DNA of 42,968 bases. Origin: a virus. A model generated the notes under the pieces. That model worked only from the letters and a program-made list of their open reading frames with translations, was not told the origin of the DNA and searched no databases. Shown here piece after piece: positions 13,948 through 42,968 of the stretch (the first letter of the stretch is position 1; each line of letters starts with the position of its first letter). Position numbers and translations under genes: made by a program. The stretch is taken from positions 1 to 42,968 of the IMG/VR virus record IMGVR_UViG_3300034374_006151. One strand, 5' to 3'.

Positions 13948-13969
13948 TGCTGACCGCTTGAACGGAACA

Positions 13970-27748: not shown

Positions 27749-27779
27749 AAAACCAATTCAAAGGGCGAAAAAAATAAAC

Positions 27780-27833: not shown

Positions 27834-27887
27834 GAGGATCAAATCGAACGCCTCTTTTTAAGGTAATTTGCAAAAAGGAAGTTTGTT

Positions 27888-28522: not shown

Positions 28523-28524
28523 AC

Positions 28525-29437: not shown

Positions 29438-30331
29438 TTAGTCATTGTTGTTCTCTTCCATTTCTTCCTGCGTTTTCTCCCACTCAGCCAGAACCGCTCT
29501 GACTGCGTTGCTCTTGTCGCCAAAAGTGGCGTCTTGACAGCCGAGAAGGCTATCAAACATCAATACCGGACCATCGGCAAGCTGAGACTTGACCTCTTTG
29601 GGCCAGCCCTTGCACGGAGTTCCATAGCCGCCGCTAAATGAGTCACAGAAATTCCCCTCAAAGCGAAATCCACTGGACTCAAGGATCGAGAAATGCAGCC
29701 GCCGCAAACAGGACGGATGCGTCAGGGCAAAGGACATCATGTCCAGATCAAGCGGCTCGCCCGCAGCCTTCAGCTCATACTCGCCCCAATAGCGAATGCC
29801 ACCAGCTTTAGAATGGTCAAAGGCAACGAGCTGGACTGAATGACCTGAGTTCTCCAGAACATCAATCAGGCCAGCAATGGCTGCGCCACGGTTTCTGATT
29901 GTCTCCGTGGAGTTGGAAGCAGACGCCGAGATGCTGACATAGACAGGAATAATATGCTTGCGTGCATTCATGTCAGGATTGTGCGTCACCATGCATTCCA
30001 TGTCACCGCCAATAAATCTTGGAACAGACGGATACATACCGGCAACATCGTATCCAAAAGAAGGAAAAACGGCCTCCATCTGCTGCACTGAACTGGCAGC
30101 GATCTCGGCAAAGTCAGCCCGCCCTTCGGGCCATCCATTTTCAGCGAGGTCGATAGCCTCTTCCAAGGATGTTGATCCTGTAAAAGAAACGCTTCCTGTT
30201 TTGGATTGCTCGTTAGAATCCCATCCACGGCTTGGTTCTTTCGCGAGTTCAATGAAATCGCTCCAGCGCCCAGATTCAAAAAGAAACCCTTTCTTGGGAT
30301 GGCCCTTGCTTCTGATTTCTTGGACGTGCAT
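29438..30331 (-). CDS. vWA-like partner of the MoxR/CobS ATPase
   Basis: A 297-residue protein coupled to the ATPase gene by TAATG with GAGGTG before the start. FIGGDMECMV and IIPVYVSISASASNSTETIRNRGAAIAGLIDVLENSGHSV resemble a degenerate von Willebrand A fold; the SASAS segment stands where the MIDAS DxSxS would be. In phages such proteins are regularly paired with MoxR-like ATPases. The pair probably acts as a chaperone or metal-insertion machine on an unknown target. The loss of the first MIDAS Asp suggests altered metal binding. Confidence 0.65.
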   Translation of the reverse strand: MHVQEIRSKGHPKKGFLFESGRWSDFIELAKEPSRGWDSNEQSKTGSVSFTGSTSLEEAIDLAENGWPEGRADFAEIAASSVQQMEAVFPSFGYDVAGMYPSVPRFIGGDMECMVTHNPDMNARKHIIPVYVSISASASNSTETIRNRGAAIAGLIDVLENSGHSVQLVAFDHSKAGGIRYWGEYELKAAGEPLDLDMMSFALTHPSCLRRLHFSILESSGFRFEGNFCDSFSGGYGTPCKGWPKEVKSQLADGPVLMFDSLLGCQDATFGDKSNAVRAVLAEWEKTQEEMEENNND

Positions 30332-31821
30332 TACATCACCTCTGCGTTGATCTTGGTGCGGGCCTCTTTGTCCATGCCTTTCCAGATGACCATCTCCTCA
30401 ACCATCTGCCGACTCATGCCCGCACGCAGCAGACGCGAGCCAAAGATCGAGGCACGAGGCGAGACAACAAACCGGAGCTTCAGTTTGAAGACAGCCTTGC
30501 GAATTGCCTGCACCCGACGGACCCAATCAATCATGTCGTCGCCAGCGAGAGCGGTCTCCAGAGCCTCATCGTAGTCAAAGTCGACAACAACGAAGCGATC
30601 CAGAGTTGCGCCATCAAGGGCGTTGCGCCCGACGTAGATACGGTCAGCTCCACGTCCGAAAGTATTGGCCGCAGCAATGCACCGGAAGTCCTTATGACGC
30701 TCGATCACGCCATCAGGGAAGTCAGCGTGTCCGTTAGCCAGGGCGGCATTGAAAGCCATCATGGCACCGGCAGAGCTCGCGTCGACCTCATCGAACAGGA
30801 ACAGGCCACCGTTCTCATAGGTCTCACGGAAGGCCGTGCGGACCGTCTTGCCGTTGGCATCAACAAAACCGGTCAGCTTGTAAGGGCTGTCAACCGCACC
30901 AGTGAAGCGGAACGGAATGGCAAGAGACTTCGCAATCTGCTCGGCAACACTCGTCTTGCCTGAGCCAGCAGGACCGATCAGCATGGCGTTCAGGTCACAC
31001 TGCACCGTCTTGAAGACCTGCGGAAACGCCTCGTGAGCAAGCTCGACCGGAGGCGTATCCCCACCCGGAGGCGGAGCAGGCTGGATCATGTGCGGCATCC
31101 GAGCCTTGACCTCCGTAGAGATCATGTCGATCACTTTCTTCTCGGTCAGCGCATCGTCCTCTGCACGGAGAGCGTCCCGAACGATGGGAACGATTGCAGA
31201 AGCAATCAGCGTCGTCATCGGGTCGGTCCCCTCGGGGATCTTCACTTCCTTGGTTGCAGGAGCAGGTTCCGGCGCAGGAGCAGGCGCAGGAGCAGGAGGC
31301 AACGTGCCATCATGCTCGATAGGCGTCTCGATAGGCGCAGGCTCTTGATCGGGATCGGGGGTATAGAGCTTTAGCCATGCCATCGGATCGGACTGATAAG
31401 GATTGCCGGGAACGTAGGCTGGCGATTCGATCTCGCCCGCATTCAGGTAATGCTCCAAGCGAATCGAATGAGACCCCTCCAAGAACATGCGCTGAGCTTT
31501 GTGGGCTCCAATCGCTGCCAAATCGCGGCGAAATTCGCGGCGGAAAACCGCAATCTCTGATTTGGAATAGCCATGGCCCTCAAGAATGCTAAAAGCATAA
31601 CCATCATTAAGGACAATCCTAATCTTATCCGTCTTGGAAAAATGCTGGCACTTTTCGGACGGAAGGCCGTAACCATTCAGCATTGAGTTCATTTCTGAAG
31701 TTGTGAGAGCCTCATGGAAAAAACAATGGTCCAGTCCTGTCGGATACCTATTAAACAACTTGGTCAGAAGCGCCCGCCTCTTCTCCGTCTTCATCTGTGT
31801 GCGTCGATTAAAGGTAGCCAT
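30331..31821 (-). CDS. MoxR/CobS-like AAA+ ATPase
   Basis: A 496-residue protein. The N-terminal helical region (1-150) is followed by a proline/alanine-rich linker (about 173-190) and then the AAA+ core: Walker A GPAGSGKT (283-290), Walker B LFLFDEVDA (340-348), a sensor segment AAANTFGRGAD and an arginine-bearing GATLDRF. This is the CobS/MoxR branch of AAA+ remodelers. The start at 31821 has GGAG at proper spacing. Together with the downstream vWA-like gene it forms a two-gene unit. Its substrate is unknown. Confidence 0.82.
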   Translation of the reverse strand: MATFNRRTQMKTEKRRALLTKLFNRYPTGLDHCFFHEALTTSEMNSMLNGYGLPSEKCQHFSKTDKIRIVLNDGYAFSILEGHGYSKSEIAVFRREFRRDLAAIGAHKAQRMFLEGSHSIRLEHYLNAGEIESPAYVPGNPYQSDPMAWLKLYTPDPDQEPAPIETPIEHDGTLPPAPAPAPAPEPAPATKEVKIPEGTDPMTTLIASAIVPIVRDALRAEDDALTEKKVIDMISTEVKARMPHMIQPAPPPGGDTPPVELAHEAFPQVFKTVQCDLNAMLIGPAGSGKTSVAEQIAKSLAIPFRFTGAVDSPYKLTGFVDANGKTVRTAFRETYENGGLFLFDEVDASSAGAMMAFNAALANGHADFPDGVIERHKDFRCIAAANTFGRGADRIYVGRNALDGATLDRFVVVDFDYDEALETALAGDDMIDWVRRVQAIRKAVFKLKLRFVVSPRASIFGSRLLRAGMSRQMVEEMVIWKGMDKEARTKINAEVM

Positions 31822-33238
31822 CGGTTTCTCCATTCTCTCTTTGTGACAGGCTTTCAAACTTGGTTGTTTCGGGGTTAAAGTGCAGGTTCACCGTCCCGAC
31901 AGGGCCATGTCTCTGCTTGGCAATAATCAGCTCTGCTACACCTGACTTCTCGCTGATTGCCTTCTCCCAATTTTCAAGTCGCTCAGAAAATGCGACCTGG
32001 GTTTCATTGGCTCGCCGTTCTGGCGCGGCCTTTGAGAGGTAATACTCCTCACGATAGAGAAACATCACCACGTCAGCGTCTTGCTCAATCGAGCCAGACT
32101 CCCTGAGATCAGATAGCAAGGGCCGCTTGTCTTCGCGCTGCTCCACTGCTCTGCTGAGCTGTGAAAGAGCAATCACTGGGACATCCAGCTCTTTTGCCAT
32201 GGCTTTCAAACCCTGGCTGATCTCAGTTACTTCCTGAACCCTGTTGTCAGAGCGTCCAGTTCCTTTCATGAGCTGTAGGTAATCAACGATCACCAGATCC
32301 AGCCCCTTCTGTCGTTTCAGTCTTCGTGCTCTTGTCCTGATGGCCGAGACCGACAGGGCAGGAGTGTCATCAAGCATGAGCGGGACATCCTTTAGTCCCT
32401 GAGAAGCTTTCACAGCGCGTTCAACTTCCTTTGCACTGACCTTGCCTCGCCTCAAGAGGTCGGATGCAACGCCTGCAATGTCTGCAATCACGCGATTTGC
32501 GAGCTGATCTGACGCCATCTCCAAAGAGAACAGCGCCACATGCTTTGGGTTTTCCTTGCTGGCAGAAGCGCTCACCGCAATGTTCGTTGCGAGCGCTGTT
32601 TTGCCCATGGCCGGACGTGCAGCCAGGATGATTAGATCACTTGGCTGGAAGCCGCCCATCATTTGATCGAGATCAATCAGGTACGATCTGACACCTGTGA
32701 TGCCGCCGCCGCCTTTGTAGGCGTTGTTGATTGTCTCAATAGCTCTCAGGGACGCATCAGAGATTGTCTCGAAGCCGCGGTCTTGCGAACCGAGCTCTGC
32801 AAGATCGAACAGGAGCTTCTCTGCCTCTTCGAGCTTATCAATGGCAGACGTGCCTGGTTCATAGTTGAACGCCTCATAGGTGATAATCTCACCAATCTCA
32901 GCCAGCTCTCTGCGGGTGTACCCGTCAACAACTGAACGAGCATAGTCAGGAACTGTTATGATGCTTGTGGCGGAAGCTACGAGCCCTGCCAGATAGGCAG
33001 GCCCGCCAACATCAGCAAGAGCGTCGTCTTGCTCAAAAAAGGGCTGCAATGTCAGCGGGTTAGCAACTGTTTCCTTGCCCATGAGAATTTCGATTGCGGC
33101 ATAGATTCTGCCGTGAACCGGAATGAAAAAGTGCTCAGGCGTCAGGCCGCTTTCGATTCTCTCCATTGCATTGTTGTTGAGAAGCAGCGCTCCCAATAGA
33201 GCCTGCTCAATCGCCTCAGCCTGGTTTGTTGTCTCCAT
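31808..33238 (-). CDS. dnaB: DnaB-like replicative helicase
   Basis: A 476-residue helicase close in size to bacterial DnaB. The N-terminal domain (QALLGALLLNNNAMERI) and the RecA-type domain with Walker A ARPAMGKT (207-214), Walker B LVIVDYLQL (about 314-322), an IALSQLSRAVEQR switch and DLRESGSIEQDADVV are all present. It unwinds DNA at the phage fork; the gene at 36728-37144 may load it. The ATG at 33238 is chosen because it gives the canonical N-terminus. It overlaps the ATPase gene by 14 bases. Confidence 0.93.
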   Translation of the reverse strand: METTNQAEAIEQALLGALLLNNNAMERIESGLTPEHFFIPVHGRIYAAIEILMGKETVANPLTLQPFFEQDDALADVGGPAYLAGLVASATSIITVPDYARSVVDGYTRRELAEIGEIITYEAFNYEPGTSAIDKLEEAEKLLFDLAELGSQDRGFETISDASLRAIETINNAYKGGGGITGVRSYLIDLDQMMGGFQPSDLIILAARPAMGKTALATNIAVSASASKENPKHVALFSLEMASDQLANRVIADIAGVASDLLRRGKVSAKEVERAVKASQGLKDVPLMLDDTPALSVSAIRTRARRLKRQKGLDLVIVDYLQLMKGTGRSDNRVQEVTEISQGLKAMAKELDVPVIALSQLSRAVEQREDKRPLLSDLRESGSIEQDADVVMFLYREEYYLSKAAPERRANETQVAFSERLENWEKAISEKSGVAELIIAKQRHGPVGTVNLHFNPETTKFESLSQRENGETDGYL

Positions 33239-33449
33239 TTTTTCGCTTTCTCTCAACCAGCTTGCGGGCATGGCGCAAACCGCCTTCAATGGCGGTCCTT
33301 GCGTAGCGCACCTTGTCCACGGTTTCCGTTCGGCACTCAGCTTCGAGGAGCAGGTCTCGGGCACGGTTTACATGCCAGAAAGCTTGCTCCAGTCGGCTGA
33401 CCCGAAGCTCTGGGTCCATGCCCAGAGACTTCTTTGGTCGGTTTCGCAT
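33216..33449 (-). CDS. Small basic helical protein between helicase and SSB
   Basis: A 77-residue protein with the pattern of two long helices (RVSRLEQAFWHVNRARDLLLEAECRTETVDKVRYARTAIE in part) and a strongly basic end RHARKLVERKRKNGD. It overlaps the SSB stop and the helicase start. No family recognised; a replication accessory role is suggested by position only. Confidence 0.6.
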   Translation of the reverse strand: MRNRPKKSLGMDPELRVSRLEQAFWHVNRARDLLLEAECRTETVDKVRYARTAIEGGLRHARKLVERKRKNGDNKPG

Positions 33450-33877
33450 CAGAACGGAACGTCGTCGTCGATGTCCTCGATGGCTCTGCCTTCATCGTAG
33501 CCGGCGTCTCCGCCATCGGAGCCGGAGCCGGACTCGCTTTTGGGCGTGAGGAACTTCACGGTGCCGTTGAAGTCGATCACGATCTCGGTCGTGTACTTGT
33601 CGTTGCCGTCCTTGTCGGTCCACTTCCGGGTCTGGAGCTTGCCTTGGACCAGGAGCATGTCGCCCTTCTTGGAGTTTCGCTCAACGGCTTCAGCAAGCTG
33701 TGCCGCAAAGATCACGACGCGATGCCACTCCGTCTTCTCCTTCATCTCGCCACTGGCCTTGTCTTTCCAGCGCTCGCTGGTAGCCATGTTGAGATTGCAG
33801 ACAGCATTGCCGTTGTTCATCCGGCGCAACTCGGGGTCACGGCCAAGTCGGCCACAGATTGTTACCTGGTTAAGCAT
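33449..33877 (-). CDS. ssb: Single-stranded DNA-binding protein
   Basis: A 142-residue SSB. The OB fold starts MLNQVTICGRLGRDPELRR and includes ERWKDKASGEMKEKTEWHRV and GKLQTRKWTD. The C-terminus is a Ser/Gly linker ending in DIDDDVPF, the acidic tip that recruits replication and recombination partners. AAGGAGGAG precedes the ATG. It sits between the annealing protein and the helicase, as usual in phage replication-recombination modules. Confidence 0.92.
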   Translation of the reverse strand: MLNQVTICGRLGRDPELRRMNNGNAVCNLNMATSERWKDKASGEMKEKTEWHRVVIFAAQLAEAVERNSKKGDMLLVQGKLQTRKWTDKDGNDKYTTEIVIDFNGTVKFLTPKSESGSGSDGGDAGYDEGRAIEDIDDDVPF

Positions 33878-33880
33878 AGA

Positions 33881-34582
33881 TTACTCCTCCTTGTTTGATG
33901 TGAGCGACCGGTTCTTGGTAGTCCAAAGAGCTGCCGCTTTGGTCACATGGCTTGCGTGGGTCTTCTTCATCTTGGACATTTCAGGTCCAAGCTCTGCATT
34001 GAGCTCGTTGAGCTGCTCAAGGCTAATTGCCGCCTCAGTCCGACGGCGATACTCAGTGATGACTTCGGGAACGCCCTCCTCGAACTTTTCCTTCATCATC
34101 TGGACGTAAGCGTTGTCGTCGAACTTGCCCAGGAACACGTCGGCATTGAAGCCAAGATGGCTCAAGCCCTTGGTCAGGCAATCAGTCATTGCCTTCTTGG
34201 GTGCGTCCTTGTCGAGCCGGCCCTTGTTGTCGAGCATCGGGCATGTGCAACGGATCGGGCCGAAAGAGTTCTCAAACTCCCCAACTGCCCAGTCCGGCGT
34301 CCCTTCAACCCGGCGCTTGACGCCCCAGTAGATCATCATGTCACACCAGACATAAGAAACGGTTCCGGCAAGTTCCTGACCGTAGGCGCAGTTGTAGCTC
34401 CAGCCGTCTCCAACAGGGCCGAAAACCTCCGTTGCACGCATGACCTGGTAGTGTGCGTCAATACTGGTGAACTTGCGGCCAAACTCAACAGCCTTTGTGT
34501 GCTTCGGGTCGGTGTAACAAACCTCCGACCAGATCGCCATGTTGTCTTTGCCCTTGGGCATGGTGTCGTTGTCATCAGGCAT
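33881..34582 (-). CDS. Single-strand annealing protein (Rad52/ERF-like)
   Basis: A 233-residue protein. WSEVCYTDPKHTKAVEFGRKFTSIDAHYQ, a beta-rich core around VWCDMMIYWGV, and KKAMTDCLTKGLSHLGFNADVFLGKFDDNAYV give the arrangement of Rad52-superfamily phage annealing proteins. A charged C-terminal tail follows. Such proteins pair complementary strands made by a phage exonuclease, here the Cas4/RecB-like or the YqaJ-like enzyme. AAAGGAG lies before the start. Placement next to ssb supports the role. Confidence 0.75.
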   Translation of the reverse strand: MPDDNDTMPKGKDNMAIWSEVCYTDPKHTKAVEFGRKFTSIDAHYQVMRATEVFGPVGDGWSYNCAYGQELAGTVSYVWCDMMIYWGVKRRVEGTPDWAVGEFENSFGPIRCTCPMLDNKGRLDKDAPKKAMTDCLTKGLSHLGFNADVFLGKFDDNAYVQMMKEKFEEGVPEVITEYRRRTEAAISLEQLNELNAELGPEMSKMKKTHASHVTKAAALWTTKNRSLTSNKEE

Positions 34583-34588
34583 AAAGCT

Positions 34589-34984
34589 TCACTCCTTTTT
34601 GGTTTCAAAGAACTTGTCGAAAAAAGCCCTGACATTTTCGGGGATGTCTTCCTGTTTCAGGGGTCCATCATAGGGCTCAGCAGGAACGTCGGCGGGAACA
34701 AAACTGCCCGAGTATCCCGTTGCTTTTGCTGCTCGGGCGGCGTCTTTCCCAATCTCGGTCGCTGCGTCGACCACCATCTTCGTGGTTTCTAAGGCCAGCT
34801 TGTACTCTGCTCCGGGGCGGCAGACGCCGAAAAGGATCGCGAAGGGCATCGCGACGGTGGATTCGGCGACCTTGGTAGGGCAAATGTCGGCATAACTGGC
34901 TGCCTCAATCAGATACATGGTGGCTGCGTCCATCGCATTCGCGAGAAACACCTGCTGTTCTTGCGTCGTCAGTTTCTTTTTCAT
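34589..34984 (-). CDS. Hypothetical protein, 131 residues
   Basis: A mostly helical protein (MKKKLTTQEQQVFLANAMDAATMYLIEAASYADI...) with a central hydrophobic stretch FAILFGVCRPG, too short to be sure of a membrane helix, and an acidic C-terminus. It lies seven bases upstream of the annealing protein gene and overlaps the winged-helix gene. No family recognised. Confidence 0.62.
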   Translation of the reverse strand: MKKKLTTQEQQVFLANAMDAATMYLIEAASYADICPTKVAESTVAMPFAILFGVCRPGAEYKLALETTKMVVDAATEIGKDAARAAKATGYSGSFVPADVPAEPYDGPLKQEDIPENVRAFFDKFFETKKE

Positions 34985-35295
34985 GAAAATAGGTTTCCCT
35001 GTTTTTCTCGCTTGATTTCATAGCAGTAAGCCTGACGCCCAGACCTGTTCTTGCGCTTTTCTCCTGTGCGCTGGATCAATCCGGCCTCTTCAAGCTCGTT
35101 CATGCGCCTCCAGACTGGATAGCCCAGGATGTCTCCCAGATTCTCTGCTGTCAGACCCATCTGGGATCTGGAGAAGATTTGCATCATAGCGCGATGCTGA
35201 CCCTCTCGACCGAGCTTGATGCTGTCTGCGGCATCGTGGCTGGTATCGACATCGGTTTGCCTTGCCAGCTTGTGAGGTTCAAAAGGTAGCTTCAT
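34981..35295 (-). CDS. Winged-helix DNA-binding protein, 104 residues
   Basis: The second half forms a winged helix: MGLTAENLGDILGYPVWRRMNELEEAGLIQRTGEKRKNRSGRQ, with two helices, a recognition helix and a basic wing. The start at 35295 has GGAG nine bases upstream; a TTG further up is possible. It overlaps its neighbours. Probably a transcription factor or replication accessory of the leftward operon. Confidence 0.68.
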   Translation of the reverse strand: MKLPFEPHKLARQTDVDTSHDAADSIKLGREGQHRAMMQIFSRSQMGLTAENLGDILGYPVWRRMNELEEAGLIQRTGEKRKNRSGRQAYCYEIKREKQGNLFS

Positions 35296-35521
35296 CCAAC
35301 ACTTCTCCAATCTTGGCCTCTATTACAGACAGAACCTCTTCCGGGCCTGCGTACATTCCAGAACGAAGCGCTTCCTCAAAGCAGGCGGCGCAAATGTTGT
35401 AGTTCGAATTACTCAGGAGCTTTCTGGCCGAGTATGGAAGAGCGTCGTAGCAATGCTCCATAAACTCTGCCCCATCATCGGCAGCCTGCAAGCAGCCAAA
35501 CTTATTCCTTGCTTCCTCCAT
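35279..35521 (-). CDS. Hypothetical protein, 80 residues
   Basis: A small helical protein with four cysteines scattered along its length (FGCLQ, EHCYD, NICAACFEE); the C-A-A-C pair could bind metal. It is translationally nested between the nuclease gene and the winged-helix gene by short overlaps. No family recognised. Confidence 0.6.
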   Translation of the reverse strand: MEEARNKFGCLQAADDGAEFMEHCYDALPYSARKLLSNSNYNICAACFEEALRSGMYAGPEEVLSVIEAKIGEVLDEATF

Positions 35522-36410
35522 TTCGAACTTCCTTCATGTACTGTTCGCAGAACGCTGCAACTGCGCAGTAGTTCTCGCATCGAATAGCTTCACCTCGGCG
35601 CGTCTCAATTGAGAACTCGCCCTTCTTGTCTCCAAGCGTCTTGCCCTGGGCCTGACACCAGTCGTAAGCCTCGTTGTGGCCTGAATGCAGGCCGCCACGC
35701 TCGGCACGCTTGTTGCCGTTTTTCATGACCGCATAGACAGGGGGCTTCATCCAGCGCTCCTCATCGGAGCACAGAGGAAGCTTTTCACGAGCGCTCATGT
35801 GTGCATCGACACGCTCAAGCACGAACTCCTCGATGGCAGGGTCAGACCAGACCGGCTGGTCAATAATTGCCACCTTTGTCTGCGGGTAGTTGGAGTCGTT
35901 CTTCGCGGTCCTCATGCTCCAGTCGCGAAGAATCATCACGTTCTGGAGCTTGGTGACTGGATAGCTGTTGTACCGAGCAAGCCATGCGAGCATGTTGAGT
36001 TGCTGTGCTCGCTCGGGCTTTGCGTCGTAGATGACTTCCCAGACACTGGCGTACTTGTAGTCCTGAAGGACGTAGTTGCCTGAGTCGTCCTTGATGAGCG
36101 CAACGCGGTCAAACTTGCCAGTCAGAGAAATGCCGGGAGAAACCTCACGGTACAGGCGTTGCTCAGCAATGCCGTCGGCCTCAGCCCGCTCCAGGACCTC
36201 ATGGATGGCCTTGCCTTCCAGAGCCCAGAGGCGGTCTGAGACATCCTCGACCAGATTGTCACCATAGAGCCGGCCAAGCTGTTTCTGCCGGGGCGGTGAA
36301 AGCAACTCAGTGACAGAGAACGTGCCTTCCTCGAATGGGCCGTCATAGATGTCCAGTGTCACAGCATCAACGATGGGCTGTGGCAGCCCGAGACGGTTCG
36401 TGAATTTCAT
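35502..36410 (-). CDS. Cas4/RecB-like PD-(D/E)XK nuclease
   Basis: A 302-residue nuclease. GKAIHEVLE (His70), GKFDRVAL (Asp101) and VLQDYKY (Asp117, Lys119) form the H...D...(D/E)xK core of RecB/Cas4 exonucleases. Near the C-terminus CENYCAVAAFC supplies clustered cysteines like the Fe-S site of Cas4 and AddB. AGGAGG precedes the ATG. With the annealing protein and SSB downstream it forms a recombination module: the nuclease exposes single strands, which the annealing protein pairs. No cas genes or CRISPR array are seen. Confidence 0.82.
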   Translation of the reverse strand: MKFTNRLGLPQPIVDAVTLDIYDGPFEEGTFSVTELLSPPRQKQLGRLYGDNLVEDVSDRLWALEGKAIHEVLERAEADGIAEQRLYREVSPGISLTGKFDRVALIKDDSGNYVLQDYKYASVWEVIYDAKPERAQQLNMLAWLARYNSYPVTKLQNVMILRDWSMRTAKNDSNYPQTKVAIIDQPVWSDPAIEEFVLERVDAHMSAREKLPLCSDEERWMKPPVYAVMKNGNKRAERGGLHSGHNEAYDWCQAQGKTLGDKKGEFSIETRRGEAIRCENYCAVAAFCEQYMKEVRNGGSKE

Positions 36411-36418
36411 GGTGCCTC

Positions 36419-36706
36419 CTACTCAACTTCCATGTACGTAATCAGCTCACCGAGCCGTCGAGCAAGCTGCTCCGACATATGCTCAGCCATCGCGACGTTC
36501 ATGGGGTTTTGGCGGTTGCCCAGAAGACCCTTGATAGTCAACGCCAAGGCATGAAGCTCACGCGCTGTGGCTCCAACCTCTGCCATGCAGTCAAGGATGT
36601 GCGGGATCTGAAGCTCAGCGGCCGCGGAGTAATCCGTTTCCTGAGCGGGGTCGTCTGCTGGCGGCAGCTTTACGCTACCGTCTGTATAAGGAATATGTGC
36701 GGGCAT
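36419..36706 (-). CDS. Hypothetical helical protein, 95 residues
   Basis: A proline-rich N-terminus (SVKLPPADDPAQ) precedes two amphipathic helices with conserved-looking leucines (LHALALTIKGLLGN; MAEHMSEQLARRLGELI). The start has AAGGA upstream. No family recognised. It lies just before the recombination nuclease in the leftward operon. Confidence 0.6.
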   Translation of the reverse strand: MPAHIPYTDGSVKLPPADDPAQETDYSAAAELQIPHILDCMAEVGATARELHALALTIKGLLGNRQNPMNVAMAEHMSEQLARRLGELITYMEVE

Positions 36707-36727
36707 CTCTCGTCCTTCGGCTTTGGA

Positions 36728-37144
36728 TTATAGGCTTTTGAGCCTCTCAATTCGAGCCAATAAAAGCTCGTACATCGACCTCTCCGATTTAAGGTCGATC
36801 CAGAACTGGGTATAGATAATCGCGTTCTGGAAATCAGCAGGCAGTGGCAAGCTACGCCACTTGTGCGTTCGCATAAGTGCTCTCGCACCAACACGGATAG
36901 CATCTTCAGGATATTCTTGTAGGAATTTCACCCATTGGGAGAGCGCATCTGCGCTCGGTACTTGTGCTTGAAACACCTCGGCCATCACATCGAGCATTCG
37001 TGCGATGAATTGTTTTGATGGTGGGGTGTTAAGGTAGTCCTCAAGCTCTCGTTGAGCCTGTCGGATGTTTTCAATCTCTTCGTCTGAGATTTGTTTTGCG
37101 TATTCCGCGTTTTCCTGCTGTGTCTTCCCCTTAAAAAGGGTCAT
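36728..37144 (-). CDS. Possible helicase-loading protein
   Basis: A 138-residue protein. The segment PPSKQFIARMLDVMAEVF, then WVKFLQEYPEDAIRVGARALMRTHKWRSLPLPADFQNAI, resembles a helical domain found in phage proteins that bridge initiator and helicase (lambda P or DnaC/DnaI functions) and lack an ATPase. The start at 37144 is preferred because AGAGG lies at proper distance; the ATG at 37150 is closer to it. It overlaps the initiator-like gene. Identity is by pattern and context. Confidence 0.55.
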   Translation of the reverse strand: MTLFKGKTQQENAEYAKQISDEEIENIRQAQRELEDYLNTPPSKQFIARMLDVMAEVFQAQVPSADALSQWVKFLQEYPEDAIRVGARALMRTHKWRSLPLPADFQNAIIYTQFWIDLKSERSMYELLLARIERLKSL

Positions 37145-37604
37145 CAGCATCCTCTCGAATTGTTGCGCGTGTAATTTCCGCGCGTTTGTCTTCTCGGGTC
37201 TGCTTGGTAGGATTTCTCGCTGCTCGCTCTGAGGCGAACTTCCTGGCGTTGAGGAGCCAGCTTTTGAAAGCGAGGTTCCAGTCTTTTCTGAGTCCACGGC
37301 TTCCTCCTACTGATTGATAGTGTATCTCGAACTTCTCAGCTTCTTCCTGAAGGTCGAGGTTGGGGCAGTTCTCTGTTGCCCATTCCAGAACCTTCGGTGA
37401 TGGCACCCAGTTTTCTGGGATGCGGTGGTTGCCTGTTGGCTTCTTATTGGCGCTCAGTGCGTCAGGAAGCCGCCTGAGTAGCTCGTTCACCATTGCCAGC
37501 AGTGTCTCTGCATCGGCAGCCGTTAGGCTGCTCTGTGATGCCCTTTCGTTCATTTCCGTGAGCGCCTGTTGGTTCGTCCGTACGACCTGCATCAACGCAT
37601 TCAT
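37131..37604 (-). CDS. DnaT/O-like replication protein
   Basis: A 157-residue protein. The N-terminal half is helical. The second half, ENWVPSPKVLEWATENCPNLDLQEEAEKFEIHYQSVGG...KDWNLAFKSWLLNARKF in part, is the DNA-binding domain found at the end of many phage O-like and DnaT-like initiators. It starts at an ATGA junction. With the loader candidate and DnaB it makes a complete second initiation set beside the DUF1376 protein at 4487. Confidence 0.68.
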   Translation of the reverse strand: MNALMQVVRTNQQALTEMNERASQSSLTAADAETLLAMVNELLRRLPDALSANKKPTGNHRIPENWVPSPKVLEWATENCPNLDLQEEAEKFEIHYQSVGGSRGLRKDWNLAFKSWLLNARKFASERAARNPTKQTREDKRAEITRATIREDADDPF

Positions 37605-37900
37605 TTGTCTCGTTCCTCCAACCATACATTGAGCGGCATAACTACCAGCCAGTCAGCTCGGTCACGACGCACAAAGAGCATGTCGTTGTCTTCGAGCCAG
37701 CTATAGAGCCGAGCAAAATCATTCGCCCGGATCTTCACTTCTGCCTTTAGTTTTTTGTCTACGGTCACATCATGACCATCGCCCTGATAGTGGGCCGCGC
37801 CGGAGAGTGGGACTCTTTCGGCGGAAACTCCCTGTGATTTCAACAGGTTAACGATTTCTCGTTCGGCGCGTGCGCCTTTATCTCTCTGACTCTTGCCCAT
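37601..37900 (-). CDS. Hjc-like Holliday junction resolvase
   Basis: A 99-residue nuclease. KGARAEREIVNLLKSQG (Glu in helix 1), RVPLSGAAHYQGDGHDVTV (Asp) and LKAEVKIRAN (E-x-K) match the archaeal Hjc fold used by several phages to cut four-way junctions before packaging. Length is near the family's minimum. It overlaps both neighbours. It may remove branched replication or recombination intermediates. Confidence 0.75.
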   Translation of the reverse strand: MGKSQRDKGARAEREIVNLLKSQGVSAERVPLSGAAHYQGDGHDVTVDKKLKAEVKIRANDFARLYSWLEDNDMLFVRRDRADWLVVMPLNVWLEERDK

Positions 37901-38126
37901 TTACACGCACCCGACATTCGAGTGCTGCGATCCAACAGGCAAGGTTCCATGCTGAGGGTCGCCTGGCCTTGGTTTCCCATTTGCCGACAAGCCCTGAAGC
38001 GCATCCAATGATTTCATCGAGGTCCCTTTGCGAGATTGATTTCTCGCGACGCCTCTTTGCGAGCTGATCTATGATCTCGTCGTAGAGGGCAAGGCTGCCG
38101 GGTGTTTCAGGATAGCAAACCTTCAC
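37878..38126 (-). CDS. XRE/Cro-type helix-turn-helix regulator
   Basis: An 82-residue protein starting at GTG with GAGGTG upstream. A basic helix (DQLAKRRREKSISQRDLDEIIGC) leads into ASGLVGKWETKARRPSAWNLACWIAAL, the five-helix Cro-like domain with its recognition helix. The promoter-and-palindrome arrangement just upstream (38166-38187) suggests it controls its own transcription and perhaps the downstream replication genes. Confidence 0.75.
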   Translation of the reverse strand: MKVCYPETPGSLALYDEIIDQLAKRRREKSISQRDLDEIIGCASGLVGKWETKARRPSAWNLACWIAALECRVRVNGQESER

Positions 38127-38165
38127 ACTGGCACCTCATCGCGCCGCTTGGACTGATGATGCTCA

Positions 38166-38187
38166 TCCATAAATGGAGAGCTGTCAA
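38166..38187 (-). promoter_or_regulatory. Possible internal promoter and operator for the HTH gene
   Basis: Read leftward, a perfect TTGACA (38187-38182) is followed by an imperfect palindrome whose core is TCCAT-AA-ATGGA on the plus strand (38166-38177). A weak -10 may lie within or just beyond it. The site is about 40 bases before the HTH regulator gene, as expected for an autoregulated repressor. The -10 is not convincing. Confidence 0.35.
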
Positions 38188-38540
38188 TCAACCGCGTCTT
38201 CCTTGAATGTGAGAACGGGAATTTCGTTCTCGTCTGCCTCTGACATCAGGATCTTATCTGATTCAGCAGCCAGAATAAGTGTTGGTCTGAATGCCTGGAC
38301 GCTATTTAGCATCCATTCTGGTCGAGCCCATTCGAGGATTTCAACGTCATGGAGGACTGACCATGCTTTCAGAGGATTGTTTGCGGTATGGACAAAGCCA
38401 AGCGCTTCGATTCCATAGACATCCACAATAGGCTGGACCATCTCTGTCATTGGCCGAGGACAAATTGCCTCGAACTCAGGAGAGATAAGGACGCGCTGAG
38501 CACGTCCTCGTTCTGGGTATCGTTCAAGATTTGCCTTCAT
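38184..38540 (-). CDS. Hypothetical protein, 118 residues
   Basis: A mixed alpha/beta protein with RVLISPEFEAICPRPMTEMVQPIV and WSVLHDVEILEWARPEWMLNSV. No motif or membrane segment is visible. It overlaps the membrane protein gene upstream by 17 bases and lies before the HTH regulator. No family recognised. Confidence 0.6.
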   Translation of the reverse strand: MKANLERYPERGRAQRVLISPEFEAICPRPMTEMVQPIVDVYGIEALGFVHTANNPLKAWSVLHDVEILEWARPEWMLNSVQAFRPTLILAAESDKILMSEADENEIPVLTFKEDAVD

Positions 38541-38817
38541 TGTGCACTCTTTCCCAATGAACTCGTCCCTTTCTCATACGCAGTCTCTCATAACCGAGAC
38601 GCTTTTTCAAAAGCCATAGCGCAATAGAAAGGACAAGACCAGCAAATACAGCGGCAATCATGCCACCAAGTGTGCCGGCGAACATGAACAGAAGTGCTCC
38701 TGTAAACATGACATCAACAATAACTTCGATCCAAAGGAAACGAAGCAAGTTGATCTTTGCCATTACAACAATGCAAGCAATGGCGGTGATTAGGCCAACA
38801 ACAAGCATCTCAATCAT
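38524..38817 (-). CDS. Membrane protein with three to four helices
   Basis: A 97-residue hydrophobic protein. Segments at about residues 3-20, 30-48 and 50-70 are strongly hydrophobic (MLVVGLITAIACIVVM; VDVMFTGALLFMFAGTLGG; AAVFAGLVLSIALWLL), followed by a basic cytoplasmic tail KKRLGYERLRMRKGR. GGAG precedes the ATG. A membrane protein among early genes might block superinfection or alter the host envelope, but nothing in the sequence proves this. Confidence 0.62.
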   Translation of the reverse strand: MIEMLVVGLITAIACIVVMAKINLLRFLWIEVIVDVMFTGALLFMFAGTLGGMIAAVFAGLVLSIALWLLKKRLGYERLRMRKGRVHWERVHNEGKS

Positions 38818-39077
38818 TTGATTGGCTCCTTTTTTATGCTGTTGGGAACAATATAGTCGATTGTTTTGACGCCCGCAGTCCTCAGTCGCACTCCATGAAG
38901 TGCCCCATCAACGCCGATGATAAGCTTTGTTTCGACACCGAGCGCATCGAGTAGCACCTGCATGGCAGCTAGACCAGAGACTATCTCGCACATGGTGTTC
39001 CAGTTTTTGTCAACCCGCTCCAAGGTCGCTGACCTTTTCAGGATTTCAGAGCGCTTGTCTTCTGGTTCGTCATTCAT
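38814..39077 (-). CDS. Hypothetical protein, 87 residues
   Basis: The start MNDEPEDK at 39077 is preferred because AGGAGG lies just before it; longer versions would place that site inside the gene. The protein has an acidic N-terminus, a helix around WNTMCEIVSGLAAMQVLLDALG and a short strand-rich end. Coupled to the membrane protein by ATGA. No family recognised. Confidence 0.58.
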   Translation of the reverse strand: MNDEPEDKRSEILKRSATLERVDKNWNTMCEIVSGLAAMQVLLDALGVETKLIIGVDGALHGVRLRTAGVKTIDYIVPNSIKKEPIK

Positions 39078-39087
39078 TGAATGCCTC

Positions 39088-39447
39088 CTATGGCTCATTA
39101 AGCCCTATGTCTTTGACGGGTAGGTATTTTCCACAAAGCTGAATTGCATAGCCCTTCTCACAGAGCTCTTTCACGACTTTGTGAGTGTGACCCAGTGAGC
39201 CGTTGCCGGCACGGGCCTGCAGCCCCCTCATGGTGATTGCATGACGCTCTTCGGCATAGTGAGCCTGGAGAGCCTCAAAGACTTTGAGCTCCACTGGTGT
39301 GAGGGGTGGTCGCGTGACCATGATTGCCCTCATGATATTGCAGATCTCACGCCTGGACGGCGTTACCATGGTTGCGGCATGGATTACCTTGCCGACACGC
39401 TCAATCTGCTCGTCATCAGGATTGATGCTCGATTGCATGTCGATCAT
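39088..39447 (-). CDS. Winged-helix-like protein, 119 residues
   Basis: The start at 39447 has GGAG seven bases upstream. The C-terminal 60 residues, LTPVELKVFEALQAHYAEERHAITMRGLQARAGNGSLGHTHK..., followed by KELCEKGYAIQLCGKYLPV, look like a LexA/MarR-type winged helix, with the wing ending the protein. The N-terminal helices may dimerise. It lies directly downstream of the nested hairpin at 39493-39561, which would be in its mRNA leader. Confidence 0.62.
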   Translation of the reverse strand: MIDMQSSINPDDEQIERVGKVIHAATMVTPSRREICNIMRAIMVTRPPLTPVELKVFEALQAHYAEERHAITMRGLQARAGNGSLGHTHKVVKELCEKGYAIQLCGKYLPVKDIGLNEP

Positions 39448-39492
39448 TTTGATCTCCGTTATGTTTATTATTGATGCCTCCTGTAAAGAGGT

Positions 39493-39561
39493 GGGAGGTC
39501 CGAGGAGCTTCGTGGCGTTGCGCCCAATCCGAAGAAGAGGCTCCACACCCCGGACCTTCCC
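39493..39561 (-). ncRNA. Nested four-part RNA hairpin in an early-operon leader
   Basis: The 161-base gap between genes contains one nested fold: GGG/CCC with a bulge plus AGGTCCG/CGGACCT (39496-39502 with 39551-39557), GGAGC/GCTCC (39504-39508 with 39540-39544), TTCG/CGAA (39509-39512 with 39530-39533) and GGCG/CGCC (39514-39517 with 39521-39524) closing a three-base loop. All arms are in perfect nesting order over 69 bases. No U-tract follows, so a processing site or protein-binding leader is more likely than a terminator. Confidence 0.5.
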
Positions 39562-39608
39562 ACATGGAGTTGGTTTGCACACTGGTTTATGCAGCCCCGA
39601 GAGATCTG

Positions 39609-39914
39609 CTACGCAGTGGGTTTTGGCCGCCTCCATTCCATTGTTACCAGATATTTCATCTGGCGAAAGATTTTGATGATCCAGCGCGGAATGAAGTACT
39701 CGTAGACTTCGCCATGCGTGTTCACATAAGCAACGTAGGGGGCCTCCTTGCGTTCACGGGTAGTGCGGCGTGCCTCACGCTTGTTCCGGTCCTTGAACAT
39801 GACGTGAATGAGCGCAATCAGCAACGCCACGGGCACCCGTGCGATCTTGGCTGCCACACGCTGTGGTGCCAAAATGAACGAAAAGATCATCAAAATTATT
39901 GCAAATGCTTCCAT
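39609..39914 (-). CDS. Small membrane-anchored basic protein, 101 residues
   Basis: The start at 39914 is preferred: GAGGAAGAA lies just before it. An N-terminal hydrophobic segment (AFAIILMIFSFILAP) and a second weaker one (VPVALLIALIHVMF) are followed by a very basic stretch KDRNKREARRTTRERKEA and a C-terminal globular part. Topology suggests a cytoplasmic, membrane-bound protein able to contact nucleic acid or lipid. No family recognised. Confidence 0.58.
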   Translation of the reverse strand: MEAFAIILMIFSFILAPQRVAAKIARVPVALLIALIHVMFKDRNKREARRTTRERKEAPYVAYVNTHGEVYEYFIPRWIIKIFRQMKYLVTMEWRRPKPTA

Positions 39915-40016
39915 TTCTTCCTCTTTTTTTCTGTTTTCGGTATGCGGCATGGTGCCCTGGCCCCCGGCCAAACCTCTCTACATACTGTGCGTTAGTATAA
40001 GAGCTGAGCCGGAGAA

Positions 40017-40040
40017 GGAGCAGGTCTTTCGACCCACTCC
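40017..40040 (-). other. Hairpin with GAAA tetraloop
   Basis: Read leftward, GGAG-TG-GGTC-GAAA-GACC-TG-CTCC folds into two stems with a symmetric internal loop and a GNRA tetraloop. It lies after the stop of the 40052-40657 gene. Just beyond it, TTATACTAACGCACAGTAT forms a shorter inverted repeat. It may stabilise or process the upstream mRNA; there is no U-tract. Confidence 0.35.
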
Positions 40041-40051
40041 CCTCCATTTGT

Positions 40052-40657
40052 TCAGCTCGCCTTTGCAGCTTTCTCCTCTCCGAGGATGGCGTCGATGCTG
40101 GCAACAAGCTTCTTCGCTGCCTCGGCCTCGACCTTGGCACCAGCCTTGCCGTAGGGCTTGTAGCGCGTGCCTGTGACGGTCTGGTAGCTGGACTTGATGT
40201 CAGCCACCATATCGTCCCAGAACTCGATACTAGCTTCACAAGTGTCGCGATACCGAACCAGACCCGCCAGGCGTGTCATGTCGATTTCCTGACCAGTCTC
40301 CGCCCTGGAGCGCGTCTGCTTCATGTAGCCGGTGTTCCGGCTGAGGTTGTTGAGATGATACTCCCGCTGCTTCTCGAAAGCCCACACCATGCGCGAGAGC
40401 AGGATGTGTGCGTCCGTGGTTTCGCGAGGCTGGATGTCTCCGTCATCCTTCGTGATGAAGCCCATTTGCTCATCTTCGATGATCGCGCTGCACAGGTCCT
40501 CCAGACCCGTGAAGAAGTCGCTGAGGATGCGGGCATCAATGCCGTGTTTCTTAAAAGCGTCGTCGCCCAAGAGGGCACCGCGCAAGTCGAAGCGGTCGTT
40601 GTCGCCCTCTTCGATAATGGGCTGGGTGAAGTCGTCGATATTCGTGATGTCAGTCAT
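40052..40657 (-). CDS. Hypothetical protein, 201 residues
   Basis: The start MTDITNIDDF at 40657 has a TGGAGA site upstream. The protein is helical, with MVWAFEKQREYHLNNLSRNTGYMKQTRSRAETGQEIDMTRL... and a C-terminal Lys/Ala/Glu-rich tail. The acidic N-terminus and coiled-coil body suggest a binding protein. No family recognised. Confidence 0.65.
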   Translation of the reverse strand: MTDITNIDDFTQPIIEEGDNDRFDLRGALLGDDAFKKHGIDARILSDFFTGLEDLCSAIIEDEQMGFITKDDGDIQPRETTDAHILLSRMVWAFEKQREYHLNNLSRNTGYMKQTRSRAETGQEIDMTRLAGLVRYRDTCEASIEFWDDMVADIKSSYQTVTGTRYKPYGKAGAKVEAEAAKKLVASIDAILGEEKAAKAS

Positions 40658-40710
40658 GATTGTTTCTCCAGTGTGGGAGCGGATGTTCCCCGCCGCCCCC
40701 TTCGGGGTCG

Positions 40711-40794
40711 CTAGTCGTTGTCCTGTCGTTTGGTCATCCACCGCCATAGCTCTTTCAGCAAGAGCCAGACGGTGAATGCTATGCCTCCTTCCAT
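40711..40794 (-). CDS. 27-residue putative membrane peptide
   Basis: ATGA overlaps the stop of the gene upstream. The peptide MEGGIAFTVWLLLKELWRWM is hydrophobic and tryptophan-rich, then ends in TKRQDND. It could lie across or along a membrane. The translational coupling and amino-acid pattern support a real gene, but it is very short. Confidence 0.42.
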   Translation of the reverse strand: MEGGIAFTVWLLLKELWRWMTKRQDND

Positions 40795-41003
40795 CAGAGC
40801 TCCTTCAGGTTGCCACGGCATGAGATTGGGGTGCTGTAATGGTGCTGCACCCAGGTCTCGAACTCCAACATGTCGTCGTACATGACTCCCAGCTTCATGC
40901 CGGTTAGCCTGTCCATCTCAGCCTCCAAGATGCACAGGTCGTCATCGTTCCCCGTTTCGCGGGCCAGATCGAGCAGTTCCGTCAGAACCTGTTCGCGTTC
41001 CAT
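40794..41003 (-). CDS. Small acidic protein, 69 residues
   Basis: The start MEREQ at 41003 has GGAG at proper spacing; the ATG twelve bases upstream does not. The protein has two acidic helices (LTELLDLARETGNDDDLCILEAEMDRL) and a C-terminal aromatic segment FETWVQHHY. Acidic early phage proteins are often inhibitors or DNA mimics, but nothing here proves it. No family recognised. Confidence 0.58.
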   Translation of the reverse strand: MEREQVLTELLDLARETGNDDDLCILEAEMDRLTGMKLGVMYDDMLEFETWVQHHYSTPISCRGNLKEL

Positions 41004-41062
41004 GTCATTCTCCATTGATTTCGATGTTAATTTCAGTTCATTTAGACCAAATTCACCCTATC

Positions 41063-41137
41063 TCACCCTATTTTACGGGGTGCCAGACCTTCACTCCGGC
41101 CTTGGTTACGATCGATGTAGGTGTTCCGAATTTTCAT
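41063..41137 (-). CDS. 24-residue possible peptide or remnant
   Basis: An ATG preceded by CTGGAGATACATC opens a 24-codon frame (MKIRNTYIDRNQG...). The neighbouring frame from the second codon on reads GTPTSIVTKAGVKVWHPVK, which looks more protein-like but has no start. Either this is a small peptide, or a short gene carrying a frameshift. A direct repeat GGGTGAGATAGGGTGA overlaps the stop. Confidence 0.28.
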   Translation of the reverse strand: MKIRNTYIDRNQGRSEGLAPRKIG

Positions 41138-41179
41138 GATGTATCTCCAGTGTAGGCGTTATGGTGATGTTGCCGTGGT

Positions 41180-41193
41180 GGGGCCGAAGCCCC
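41180..41193 (-). other. UUCG tetraloop hairpin after the 41199-41393 gene
   Basis: Read leftward, GGGGC-TTCG-GCCCC is a perfect five-pair stem closed by the very stable UUCG tetraloop, a few bases after the gene's stop codon. There is no U-tract, so it is more likely an mRNA 3'-end protector than a terminator. A similar CCCC-GAA-GGGG hairpin follows the small gene at 40711-40794. Confidence 0.45.
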
Positions 41194-41198
41194 CGGTG

Positions 41199-41393
41199 TT
41201 AGTAGCCCTCGTCTGCAATGTACCGCCGGCGCGGCCAATCACGTTCAGAAGGCGCGGGCCGGGCGTCATGCCAAGTTTCATCGGGATATTCACGTCGCGC
41301 CGCGACCAACGCCCCCAGAGATGTGTAAGCATCGACCCTTGCGCTCACCTCATATCCGTCCCAATCGATGCCCGTCACGTAAAACTCAGTCAT
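41199..41393 (-). CDS. Hypothetical protein, 64 residues
   Basis: Preceded by AACAGGAGGGAATACAG, the ribosome-binding motif also used by left-arm genes. The protein (MTEFYVTGIDWDGYEVSARVDAYTSL...) begins with strands and continues with a helix LGALVAARREYPDETW, with a basic end. Its GC-rich composition resembles the left part of the window, not the genes just downstream of it. No family recognised. Confidence 0.6.
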   Translation of the reverse strand: MTEFYVTGIDWDGYEVSARVDAYTSLGALVAARREYPDETWHDARPAPSERDWPRRRYIADEGY

Positions 41394-41462
41394 CTGTATT
41401 CCCTCCTGTTGGTCCTACCACTTAAGGCCCGCCCTCGGTGTGAGGAGCGGGCCGGTGGGGTG

Positions 41463-41624
41463 TTAGCGAGCCATCCACTCGTCGAAGGTGGGGAGCGGTG
41501 CGCCGCCGTTGGTGATGTCCCCGCCGTTGCCGTCGTCGGCGAAGGTGAGGAAGATCTCGAACTCCTGCTCGTGGGTGCCGCGCAACTTGGTCTGAAAAAA
41601 GTCGTCGGGCGTCATGTCGGTCAT
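41463..41624 (-). CDS. 53-residue hypothetical protein, first of the right leftward arm
   Basis: ATGGAGAGAAAC precedes the ATG at 41624, and a clean frame runs to TAA at 41463-41465. The protein reads MTDMTPDDFFQTKL..., then EFEIFLTFADDGNGG and ends PLPTFDEWMAR. It is acidic and compact. GC-rich like the next gene downstream. No family recognised. It is the last leftward gene before the gene-poor region. Confidence 0.58.
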   Translation of the reverse strand: MTDMTPDDFFQTKLRGTHEQEFEIFLTFADDGNGGDITNGGAPLPTFDEWMAR

Positions 41625-41732
41625 GTTTCTCTCCATCGGGCTTCATTATTTAAGCGTGCTCAGGCTATGCGTTTGTAGACGCGTGGTAGCTAGTGGTCTT
41701 CTCTAACAAAAAGACGGGTCCCCCCAACCTCA

Positions 41733-42196
41733 TCACCTGAGGGGCTGATCGAAGAGACATTGGGAGGCGGTATATTCACCGTTTGCGTTCTCGCCCCAGT
41801 CCTGTTTCGGACATTCCCTCGGGCGATGCTCCTGCTCTTCTTTGTAGTCGGCGGGTCAATGGTATGACCGCCCGCCGTTGCAGAGACGTATGGCACCAGC
41901 GCCAAGGGCTGGGGCAAGACCTTCTTCGATGGCAATCTTGTGAGACAACACAAACCGCCAGGAAAGTCGGCTCACACAGTCCCACGTGTACAGTAGTAGG
42001 GAAGAAGGTCTTGAGCCAGACCGAGCTGGTGCCAAGCGAGCGCAGCGAGCGCTAGTCGGAGCAGGCGGGTGGTCATGCCATTGACCCTGTTGACGGAGAG
42101 CTGGGGCGTTGTCTGGGGGTGGCTGGGGCAGGGCTGGGGCGAGATCCATCGAGTGACTCCGCAGCCCGATGTTTCTTCGATCAGCCCCTCAGGTGA
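41733..42196. repeat. Long imperfect inverted duplication
   Basis: Two copies of a roughly 195-base sequence face each other across a 73-base centre. Matching blocks keep mirror order: 41733-41764 with 42165-42196 (30 of 32), 41790-41799 with 42134-42143 (10 of 10), 41853-41875 with 42065-42087 (21 of 23), 41891-41900 with 42025-42034 (10 of 10) and 41915-41927 with 42001-42013 (13 of 13). The stretches between blocks have diverged and differ in length. The centre adds TGTGAG (41939-41944)/CTCACA (41971-41976). No convincing gene lies here. It may be a pair of regulatory or mobile repeats, or a replication or packaging structure. Confidence 0.6.
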
Positions 42197-42428
42197 GTGG
42201 CGGCGAAGCCGACACACTGAGCCCCATGGGGGCGACATCAGTCTAGAGCCTGACAAGGCGATATGAGCCTTTTGAGGGGTGATTGCCAAAAGCTGTCAAG
42301 TGAATAGCGACGCTGCTCTCGGATAACCTCTTTCACCAAGGCATTGATGTAAAAGGGAGATCAGCCACGCTCCCACAGGCACCGTAAATGTGATGTCGAT
42401 GACGCTTGCAACAGAGCGTCTTTTGGAC
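42197..42428. other. Gene-poor leader of the second small terminase
   Basis: I find no convincing gene here. Short palindromic pieces occur, such as GCCCCATGGGGGC near 42222. Composition is mixed and lacks the strong coding bias of the left arm. No clear promoter could be recognised, although the rightward gene at 42484 needs one in this region or in the inverted duplication. Confidence 0.4.
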
Positions 42429-42480
42429 GACCCTCCGGGGAGGGGGAAGCGAACAAAGTGAGCGAAGAGGGGGAGGGGTC
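42429..42480 (+). promoter_or_regulatory. Hairpin that may hide a ribosome binding site
   Basis: GACCCTCC (42429-42436) can pair with GGAGGGGTC (42472-42480, one bulged G), which contains the Shine-Dalgarno sequence of the gene starting at 42484. The same CCCT can instead pair with AGGG at 42441-42444, which would free the ribosome site. The two folds exclude each other, an arrangement typical of translational switches. It may also be a chance result of purine-rich sequence. Confidence 0.35.
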
Positions 42481-42483
42481 AGG

Positions 42484-42915
42484 ATGTCAGATATAGCAAA
42501 ACTATCAAGGATGAGCGCTGCTGAAGCAGGGGCTGAACTGACCCCGTTACAGAGGCGTGTTGTTGATATACTCGTAGCAGAAGGTGGCACCATCGGTGAT
42601 GCAGGCGTCAAGGCCGGCTACGCACCCAACAATCCAGAGGCAGCAAGAGTGTCAGCCTCAAACGCCCTGCGGCTTCCACACGTACAGATGTACATGTTCA
42701 AGCGTGTCGCTGAGGACATTGGTATACACGGATTTGTTGGTCTCAACGTCCTCCGTACATTGGCCCAAAGTGCAAAGAGTGAGTTCGTAAGACTGGAAGC
42801 AAGCAAGGATCTGCTTGATCGCGGTGGCTTCAAGGCACCTGAGAGGCAGCAACAGAGTGGATCACTCGATGTGAAGATCAACATTGATCTAACACAGGGT
42901 GATACGTCTGATTGA
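42484..42915 (+). CDS. Second terminase small subunit-like protein
   Basis: A 143-residue protein. LTPLQRRVVDILVAEGGTIGDAGVKAGYAPNNPEAARVSASNAL in part forms a helix-turn-helix like those of small terminases; it is followed by a helical oligomerisation part (FVRLEASKDLLDRGGFKAP) and a polar C-terminal tail (VKINIDLTQGD). This differs from the small terminase at 5514 and is less GC-rich. GAGGGG precedes the start. A large terminase would be expected to the right of the window if this belongs to a second late operon. Confidence 0.65.
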   Translation: MSDIAKLSRMSAAEAGAELTPLQRRVVDILVAEGGTIGDAGVKAGYAPNNPEAARVSASNALRLPHVQMYMFKRVAEDIGIHGFVGLNVLRTLAQSAKSEFVRLEASKDLLDRGGFKAPERQQQSGSLDVKINIDLTQGDTSD

Positions 42916-42927
42916 CGTGACGTACTG

Positions 42928-42962
42928 AGCCCGTAAGGGCTGCAGGCTCACAGTCAGGTGAG
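42928..42962 (+). other. Two small hairpins after the last gene
   Basis: AGCCC-GTAA-GGGCT (42928-42941, GNRA-type loop) and CTCAC-AGTCAG-GTGAG (42947-42962) follow the stop of the small-terminase-like gene. Neither has a U-tract within the window, which ends a few bases later. They could be part of a packaging site, since small terminases often bind near their own genes, or simply an mRNA end. Confidence 0.35.
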
Positions 42963-42968
42963 AAGAAG

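Follow-up and report, generated by a model that had tools for sequence, protein, structure and literature searches.

The locus considered here raises the question of whether a long inverted repeat, lying where leftward genes meet a rightward terminase gene in a virus contig, is the trace of an old duplication or a functional folded molecule and, if the latter, on which strand it folds and whether as RNA or DNA. According to our analysis of the window, by which we mean the whole 42,968-nucleotide stretch of IMG/VR record IMGVR_UViG_3300034374_006151, the repeat at 41733 to 42196 very probably functions in folded form, with RNA the likeliest molecule, and comparison shows such a hairpin kept in dozens of related, mostly marine phages.

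Inverted repeat upstream of the small terminase gene

The first-pass annotation described an inverted duplication with mirror-ordered blocks, and this is borne out by the arm alignments, in which four arm pairs follow each other in mirror order: the outer pair 41733-41770/42159-42196 (38 nt, 89% complementary), 41789-41804/42129-42144 (94%), 41853-41876/42064-42087 (92%), and 41906-41927/42001-42022 (86%). Global alignment of the two arms gives Watson-Crick matches at 161 of 196 aligned positions. The repeat is the sole outlier of its kind within the window, its self-complementarity score being 502 as against at most 142 elsewhere in a whole-window scan with 700-base windows. Folded as RNA, the region 41700 to 42260 reaches -341.8 kcal/mol with z = -14.5 on the + (terminase-sense) strand, compared with -278.6 kcal/mol and z = -9.5 on the - strand, and for neither strand was any of 100 shuffles as low; with DNA energy parameters, the corresponding values for the window are -166 and -139. 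In both the RNA and the DNA folding that had been proposed as a check, the + strand is thus the lower one.

In the minimum-free-energy RNA fold, a giant hairpin of approximately 460 to 530 bases is predicted just ahead of the DNA-packaging (small terminase) gene. Its pairing reaches past the limits originally noted, out to about 41712 and 42244, so that the whole predicted structure spans 41712 to 42244 on the + strand; approximately 181 base pairs, 20 of them G.U, fall inside 41733 to 42196. On the same strand, the left arm (41733 to 41935) and the right arm (42001 to 42196), both evident from the arm alignments, enclose an apical region predicted at 41936 to 42000, and the fold also shows a small hairpin, GTGGCGGCGAAGCCGACAC, to the side of the giant one at its base (42197 to 42215), which is kept in the diverged relative L008 too.

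The gene setting had been read correctly, as leftward genes meeting a rightward terminase gene. The small terminase subunit gene, which matches PHROG 2538 and 51 and served as the anchor for finding relatives, occupies 42484 to 42915 on the + strand. On the opposite side, the nearest leftward open reading frame (41463 to 41636, - strand, 57 amino acids, recognized as an ORF only) begins about 100 bases beyond the outer end of the left arm and is possibly the last gene before the junction. Because the leftward genes of the window include a DnaB-like helicase and exonucleases, we infer for them a fair label of early-type; protein family searches with the leftward genes returned no function. One of the leftward genes, at 40052 to 40747 (- strand) and about 1 kb from the hairpin, is weakly similar to the C-terminal part of the leftward gene that overlaps the arm in Pelagibacter phage Hodr (L215, 12374 to 12817).

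The window is probably a chimeric contig, judging from its composition and gene content. The GC fraction passes from about 0.64 in 1 to 26300 to about 0.54 in 26300 to 42968, with the shift near 26.3 kb, inside a tail-fibre gene; in addition, the contig L006, which is 99.8% identical to the right end of the window, runs past it into its own large terminase start, and the window has another large terminase at 6557 to 8107. This suspicion leaves the hairpin untouched, since it is supported by both L006 and the more distant L008 (75.8% identical). An assembly artefact with a single real arm, which the first-pass annotation had named as the finding that would overturn it, is likewise not obvious, both arms being present in the two contigs. 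About 65 bases of the window (41107 to 41171) are missing from the otherwise near-identical L006.

Conservation of position and pairing, and strand-specific mismatches

In L008 we identified both arms and the same rod, with fold energies of -291.4 on the + strand and -231.3 on the - strand. A 70-nt stretch of the left arm is identical in L008 and the window, whereas the right arm and an outer variable segment differ between the two and still pair with their own partners: the variable-segment duplexes formed by own arms have energies of -60.3 and -60.7, compared with -46.1 and -49.3 when the arms of the window and L008 are swapped and with about -39 +/- 4.6 when the segments are shuffled. When the window's own fold is projected onto a plain sequence alignment, 48 of its 191 predicted pairs do not hold in L008, in part because the variable segments sit out of register; counting pairs in this way was supplemented by the arm-swap energies and by larger groups of loci. 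Another contig, L007, carries a terminase 97% identical to that of the window and a different, weaker structure upstream of the position equivalent to 42257, so that the element is replaceable as a module.

Beyond these close relatives, a terminase profile brought up 291 related contigs, and 80 of these were retained. An unbranched stem of at least 60 bp lies within the 500 nt upstream of the small terminase gene in 34 of 69 contigs (a set that includes near-duplicates and forms 34 clusters at 85%), as opposed to 1 of 475 among windows two or more steps away, and the median longest unbranched stem is 55 bp upstream of the terminase gene versus medians of 26 to 32 in distant windows. A second collection, gathered through the G-tract motif described below, led to a set of 103 nonredundant loci. 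The + strand has a stem of at least 60 bp within approximately 700 nt in 69 of them, the - strand is also long-stemmed in 63, and the + strand folds better in 89; DNA energy parameters favour the + strand in 52 of 60 loci. The isolate Pelagibacter phage EXVC031P Hodr has such a repeat too, scoring 932 as against at most 130 elsewhere in its genome. A genome scan detected no such hairpin in Methylophilales phage MEP301, in which no divergent junction accompanies the terminase genes. Five group contigs (L217 to L221) are found inside marine metagenome-assembled genomes labelled Gammaproteobacteria, Rhodobiaceae, and Euryarchaeota, and the spread over such unlike labels makes the binning or the host labels doubtful.

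The pairing itself is kept while the letters change. In an alignment of six related marine loci (A5), to which the window does not belong, 27 pairs are changed on both sides compared with a mean of 13.9 in shuffled alignments, a count that none of 500 shuffles reaches, these shuffle controls leaving the relatedness of the loci in place; 95.6% of the cells of this alignment are paired, versus 36 to 45% once the partner is slid.

The types of mismatch bear on the polarity of the folded strand. Read on the + strand, the window has 18 G.U and 0 A.C mismatches and L008 has 17 and 2, respectively, while across 75 loci the 863 mismatches of these two kinds comprise 621 G.U and 242 A.C, with 468 G.U expected from base composition (z = 10.5). 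In the same loci and on the same strand, purine-purine mismatches outnumber pyrimidine-pyrimidine ones (1353 versus 515). The arms have a keto content close to neutral (0.50 and 0.53), and the repeat of Hodr shows mismatches without strand bias. Because coding windows further downstream likewise fold better on the + strand, the difference in folding energy is by itself weak evidence, and we relied on the mismatch types instead. Their preference for G.U over A.C on the terminase-sense strand argues that a folded single strand of + polarity is selected, which we hold to be highly likely on the basis of these comparisons.

The earlier proposal that the element is kept for structure is thus well supported by compensatory changes, conserved position, and strand-specific mismatches. 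Symmetric binding, the other role then suggested, finds no support, the mismatches being strongly strand-asymmetric and the arm sequences varying freely between phages. As to the blocks being functional sites, some are indeed conserved in sequence, like the 70-nt left-arm stretch that is exact in L008, but between phages the shape outlasts the letters.

In most relatives, the left arm also holds the start of a leftward reading frame. Synonymous differences within the arm and in the rest of the gene were 0.142 versus 0.307, 0.300 versus 0.444, and 0.028 versus 0.230 in three groups, which means that synonymous change is approximately 1.5 to 8 times rarer inside the arm than in the remainder of the gene. 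We regard this constraint as supporting evidence only, since gene starts may be otherwise constrained and the sequence pairs are not independent.

Internal-loop modules and the G-tract block

Within the giant hairpins, the apical domain is swapped between phages as a unit, as seen between L057 and L060, and an internal-loop module, AAC(A/C)CGG-hairpin-GTGGTGCGGGC, appears repeatedly, with flanks that covary, and is nearly confined to these structures. The viral collection searched yielded one clear case, with a real inner hairpin, outside the giant hairpins of the group: a lone AACACGG-hairpin-GTGGTGCGGGC copy at 13949 to 13985 of L264, which is a phage-like contig of another kind and has a helix-turn-helix-like gene downstream of the copy. 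The window itself contains no module of the form AACACGG...GTGGTGCGG. As for the loops, triloops are enriched and GNRA and UNCG tetraloops are not; DNA-type GNA triloops, considered as proof of single-stranded DNA, were not borne out on this loop check. Short odd-centred palindromes, such as CCAAGC-TAT-GCTTGG, occur in some relatives.

Directly right of the hairpin, the string TTGTGCGTTGACA-N18-ATAAA followed by G7-N5-G7 is strongly conserved (for example, at about -90 to -38 in L063), and TTGAC is present in 81 of the 103 loci, mostly 31 to 33 bases ahead of the G-run. By its sequence, TTGTGCGTTGACA-N18-ATAAA resembles a promoter of the sigma-70 type that would serve the terminase operon, and the G7-N5-G7 block could in principle form a G-quadruplex. 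In the window, the G-tract block GGGGAGGGGG...GGGGGAGGGG at 42437 to 42478 (+ strand), just ahead of the terminase gene, probably corresponds to the G7-N5-G7 block seen in marine relatives, in a variant with longer G-tract spacing and no clear TTGACA. Left of the hairpin, we were not able to detect a conserved sigma-70-like promoter in the 103 loci. Since the conserved promoter-like string sits right of the hairpin, the latter would not be part of a terminase mRNA started there.

Many contigs (among them L023, L055, L062, and L101) start within tens of bases of the G-tract block and not at one base. This clustering may reflect assembly dropout at the hairpin or genome ends. A genome end at the G-tract block itself, attractive from the contig ends, is at most a candidate, given that they do not fall on one base.

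Proposed role, rival explanations, and known systems

On balance, we lean towards an explanation in which the element, as a whole, is a giant + strand hairpin representing a structured RNA at a divergent gene junction. It would be a single strand in terminase sense, folded into a very long imperfect hairpin at the junction of the leftward genes and the rightward terminase operon; the strand is most likely RNA, with a length of about 0.5 kb. A rightward transcript would first read through the left arm, where in many relatives it would be antisense to the beginning of a leftward gene, then continue through the right arm and fold into a stable rod bearing internal-loop modules. Its proposed job is that of a control element of the leftward-to-rightward (early-to-late) switch, which it would exert either by blocking the leftward gene start as an antisense RNA or through a phage or host protein that it binds; this job, suggested by where the element lies and by the left arm being antisense to the leftward gene, is the weakest step and is put forward tentatively. 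That the folded molecule is RNA rather than single-stranded DNA is deemed fairly probable given the types of mismatch and the conservation of the internal loops, while the missing left promoter and the loop types keep single-stranded DNA under consideration.

The main rival, a + polarity single-stranded DNA hairpin, would serve replication or genome-end formation, as a single-strand origin or as a hairpin near a terminal repeat of the sort proposed for T7 concatemers, and the adjoining small terminase gene would then mark a packaging or replication site. Cut or pac sites are often near the small terminase gene, and such a hairpin accounts for most of the facts cited for RNA: no promoter to make an RNA is recognizable on the left, triloops are common without enrichment of GNRA or UNCG, DNA parameters favour the + strand as well (-166 versus -139 in the window and 52 of 60 loci), and contig ends cluster by the G-tract block beside the hairpin. 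These ends are, however, scattered over tens of bases and are maybe mere assembly dropout, and conserved internal-loop modules together with purine-rich mismatches are typical of RNA, which leaves the DNA hairpin, in our judgment, somewhat doubtful. If the element were instead the folded 5' leader of a leftward mRNA, controlling translation of the leftward gene from the - strand, the start codon found within the left arm in many relatives and the long - strand stem in 63 of 103 loci would be explained, but the mismatches favour pairing of the + strand and not of the - strand, and in the window the nearest leftward frame starts outside the left arm, about 100 bases away; we therefore consider such a leader quite unlikely.

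Selected structure would be dispensable altogether if an old inverted duplication had been homogenized by exchange between its arms, with strand-biased mutation mimicking the preference for G.U. By general reasoning, arm-to-arm conversion can yield paired changes, and strand-biased C-to-T and A-to-G change would make G.U on one strand. Strong bias of this kind is nevertheless a poor fit to the near-neutral keto content (0.50 and 0.53), and the recurrence of long hairpins at the same site in many phages whose arm sequences are unrelated, the synonymous constraint within the arm, and the sequence conservation of the internal loops further make this scenario unlikely. A double-stranded regulatory region with palindromic operators for divergent promoters would suit the divergent junction and the short odd-centred palindromes of some relatives; it has no need for 200-base arms, for sequence turnover that preserves pairing, or for strand asymmetry, and we consider it very improbable.

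Features by which structured non-coding RNAs are generically recognized, namely covariation (in the six marine loci) and a strand-specific mismatch pattern, were found for the giant hairpin. At the gathering threshold, Rfam, which includes GOLLD, ROOL, and OLE, gave no matches in the window or in 12 related loci; at E <= 1, it gave none for window positions 41600 to 42500 or for L264 and one chance-level NEAT1 match for L255. Neither blastn with 41640 to 42460 nor megablast with positions 1 to 25000 matched phage records, a tRNA scan found none, and no description of such an element was found in the open-licence papers searched. Possibly, the hairpins are a widespread and undescribed class of phage molecule, giant rods of RNA (or of single-stranded DNA), of which shape and position are conserved and sequence hardly at all, in which one arm often doubles as the start of a protein gene, and which may govern the leftward-to-rightward switch or packaging in a large group of phages that are mostly marine. 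If it is RNA, the element is among the longest near-continuous hairpins in phage genomes known to us and is shared by a large set of uncultured phages, most of them marine, while missing from Rfam; it would then show that a key regulatory junction of phages can hold about 0.5 kb of double-stranded-like RNA, which raises the question of how phages escape RNase III and SbcCD-type nucleases. The occurrence of such a hairpin in the isolate Hodr makes this testable now.

Two types of hairpin site were rejected as identities of the element. An intrinsic terminator is not indicated, as no U-tract follows the base on the + strand and the sole + strand site, weak and at chance level, lies inside the left arm. 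A telomere resolution site of the N15 telRL type needs a perfect palindrome, and the arms are imperfect, with internal loops and 161 of 196 positions identical.

Among known systems, the intrinsic terminators and RNase III processing hairpins of podophages likewise stand between transcription units; these are some tens of bases long, whereas approximately 180 base pairs are predicted here. Retron non-coding RNAs also contain long hairpins and are paired with a reverse transcriptase gene, and no such gene was noticed adjoining the element among the selected window proteins scanned. A hairpin end in T7 concatemer processing was reportedly described by Chung, Nardone and Hinkle in 1990 as a DNA-processing intermediate; the likeness lies in a hairpin tied to a terminase-dependent genome junction, but the T7 hairpin is an intermediate of processing, and the element described here is a conserved 0.5-kb rod. 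GOLLD and ROOL are large, highly structured phage and prophage RNAs of unknown function that were found by comparative genomics (PMC12286853), and the present element resembles them in being large, structured, phage encoded, and found by comparison. They differ from it in that GOLLD and ROOL branch elaborately, are often near tRNA genes, and constitute Rfam families (PMC12286853), whereas here one long rod precedes the small terminase gene and it is mainly the shape that is conserved.
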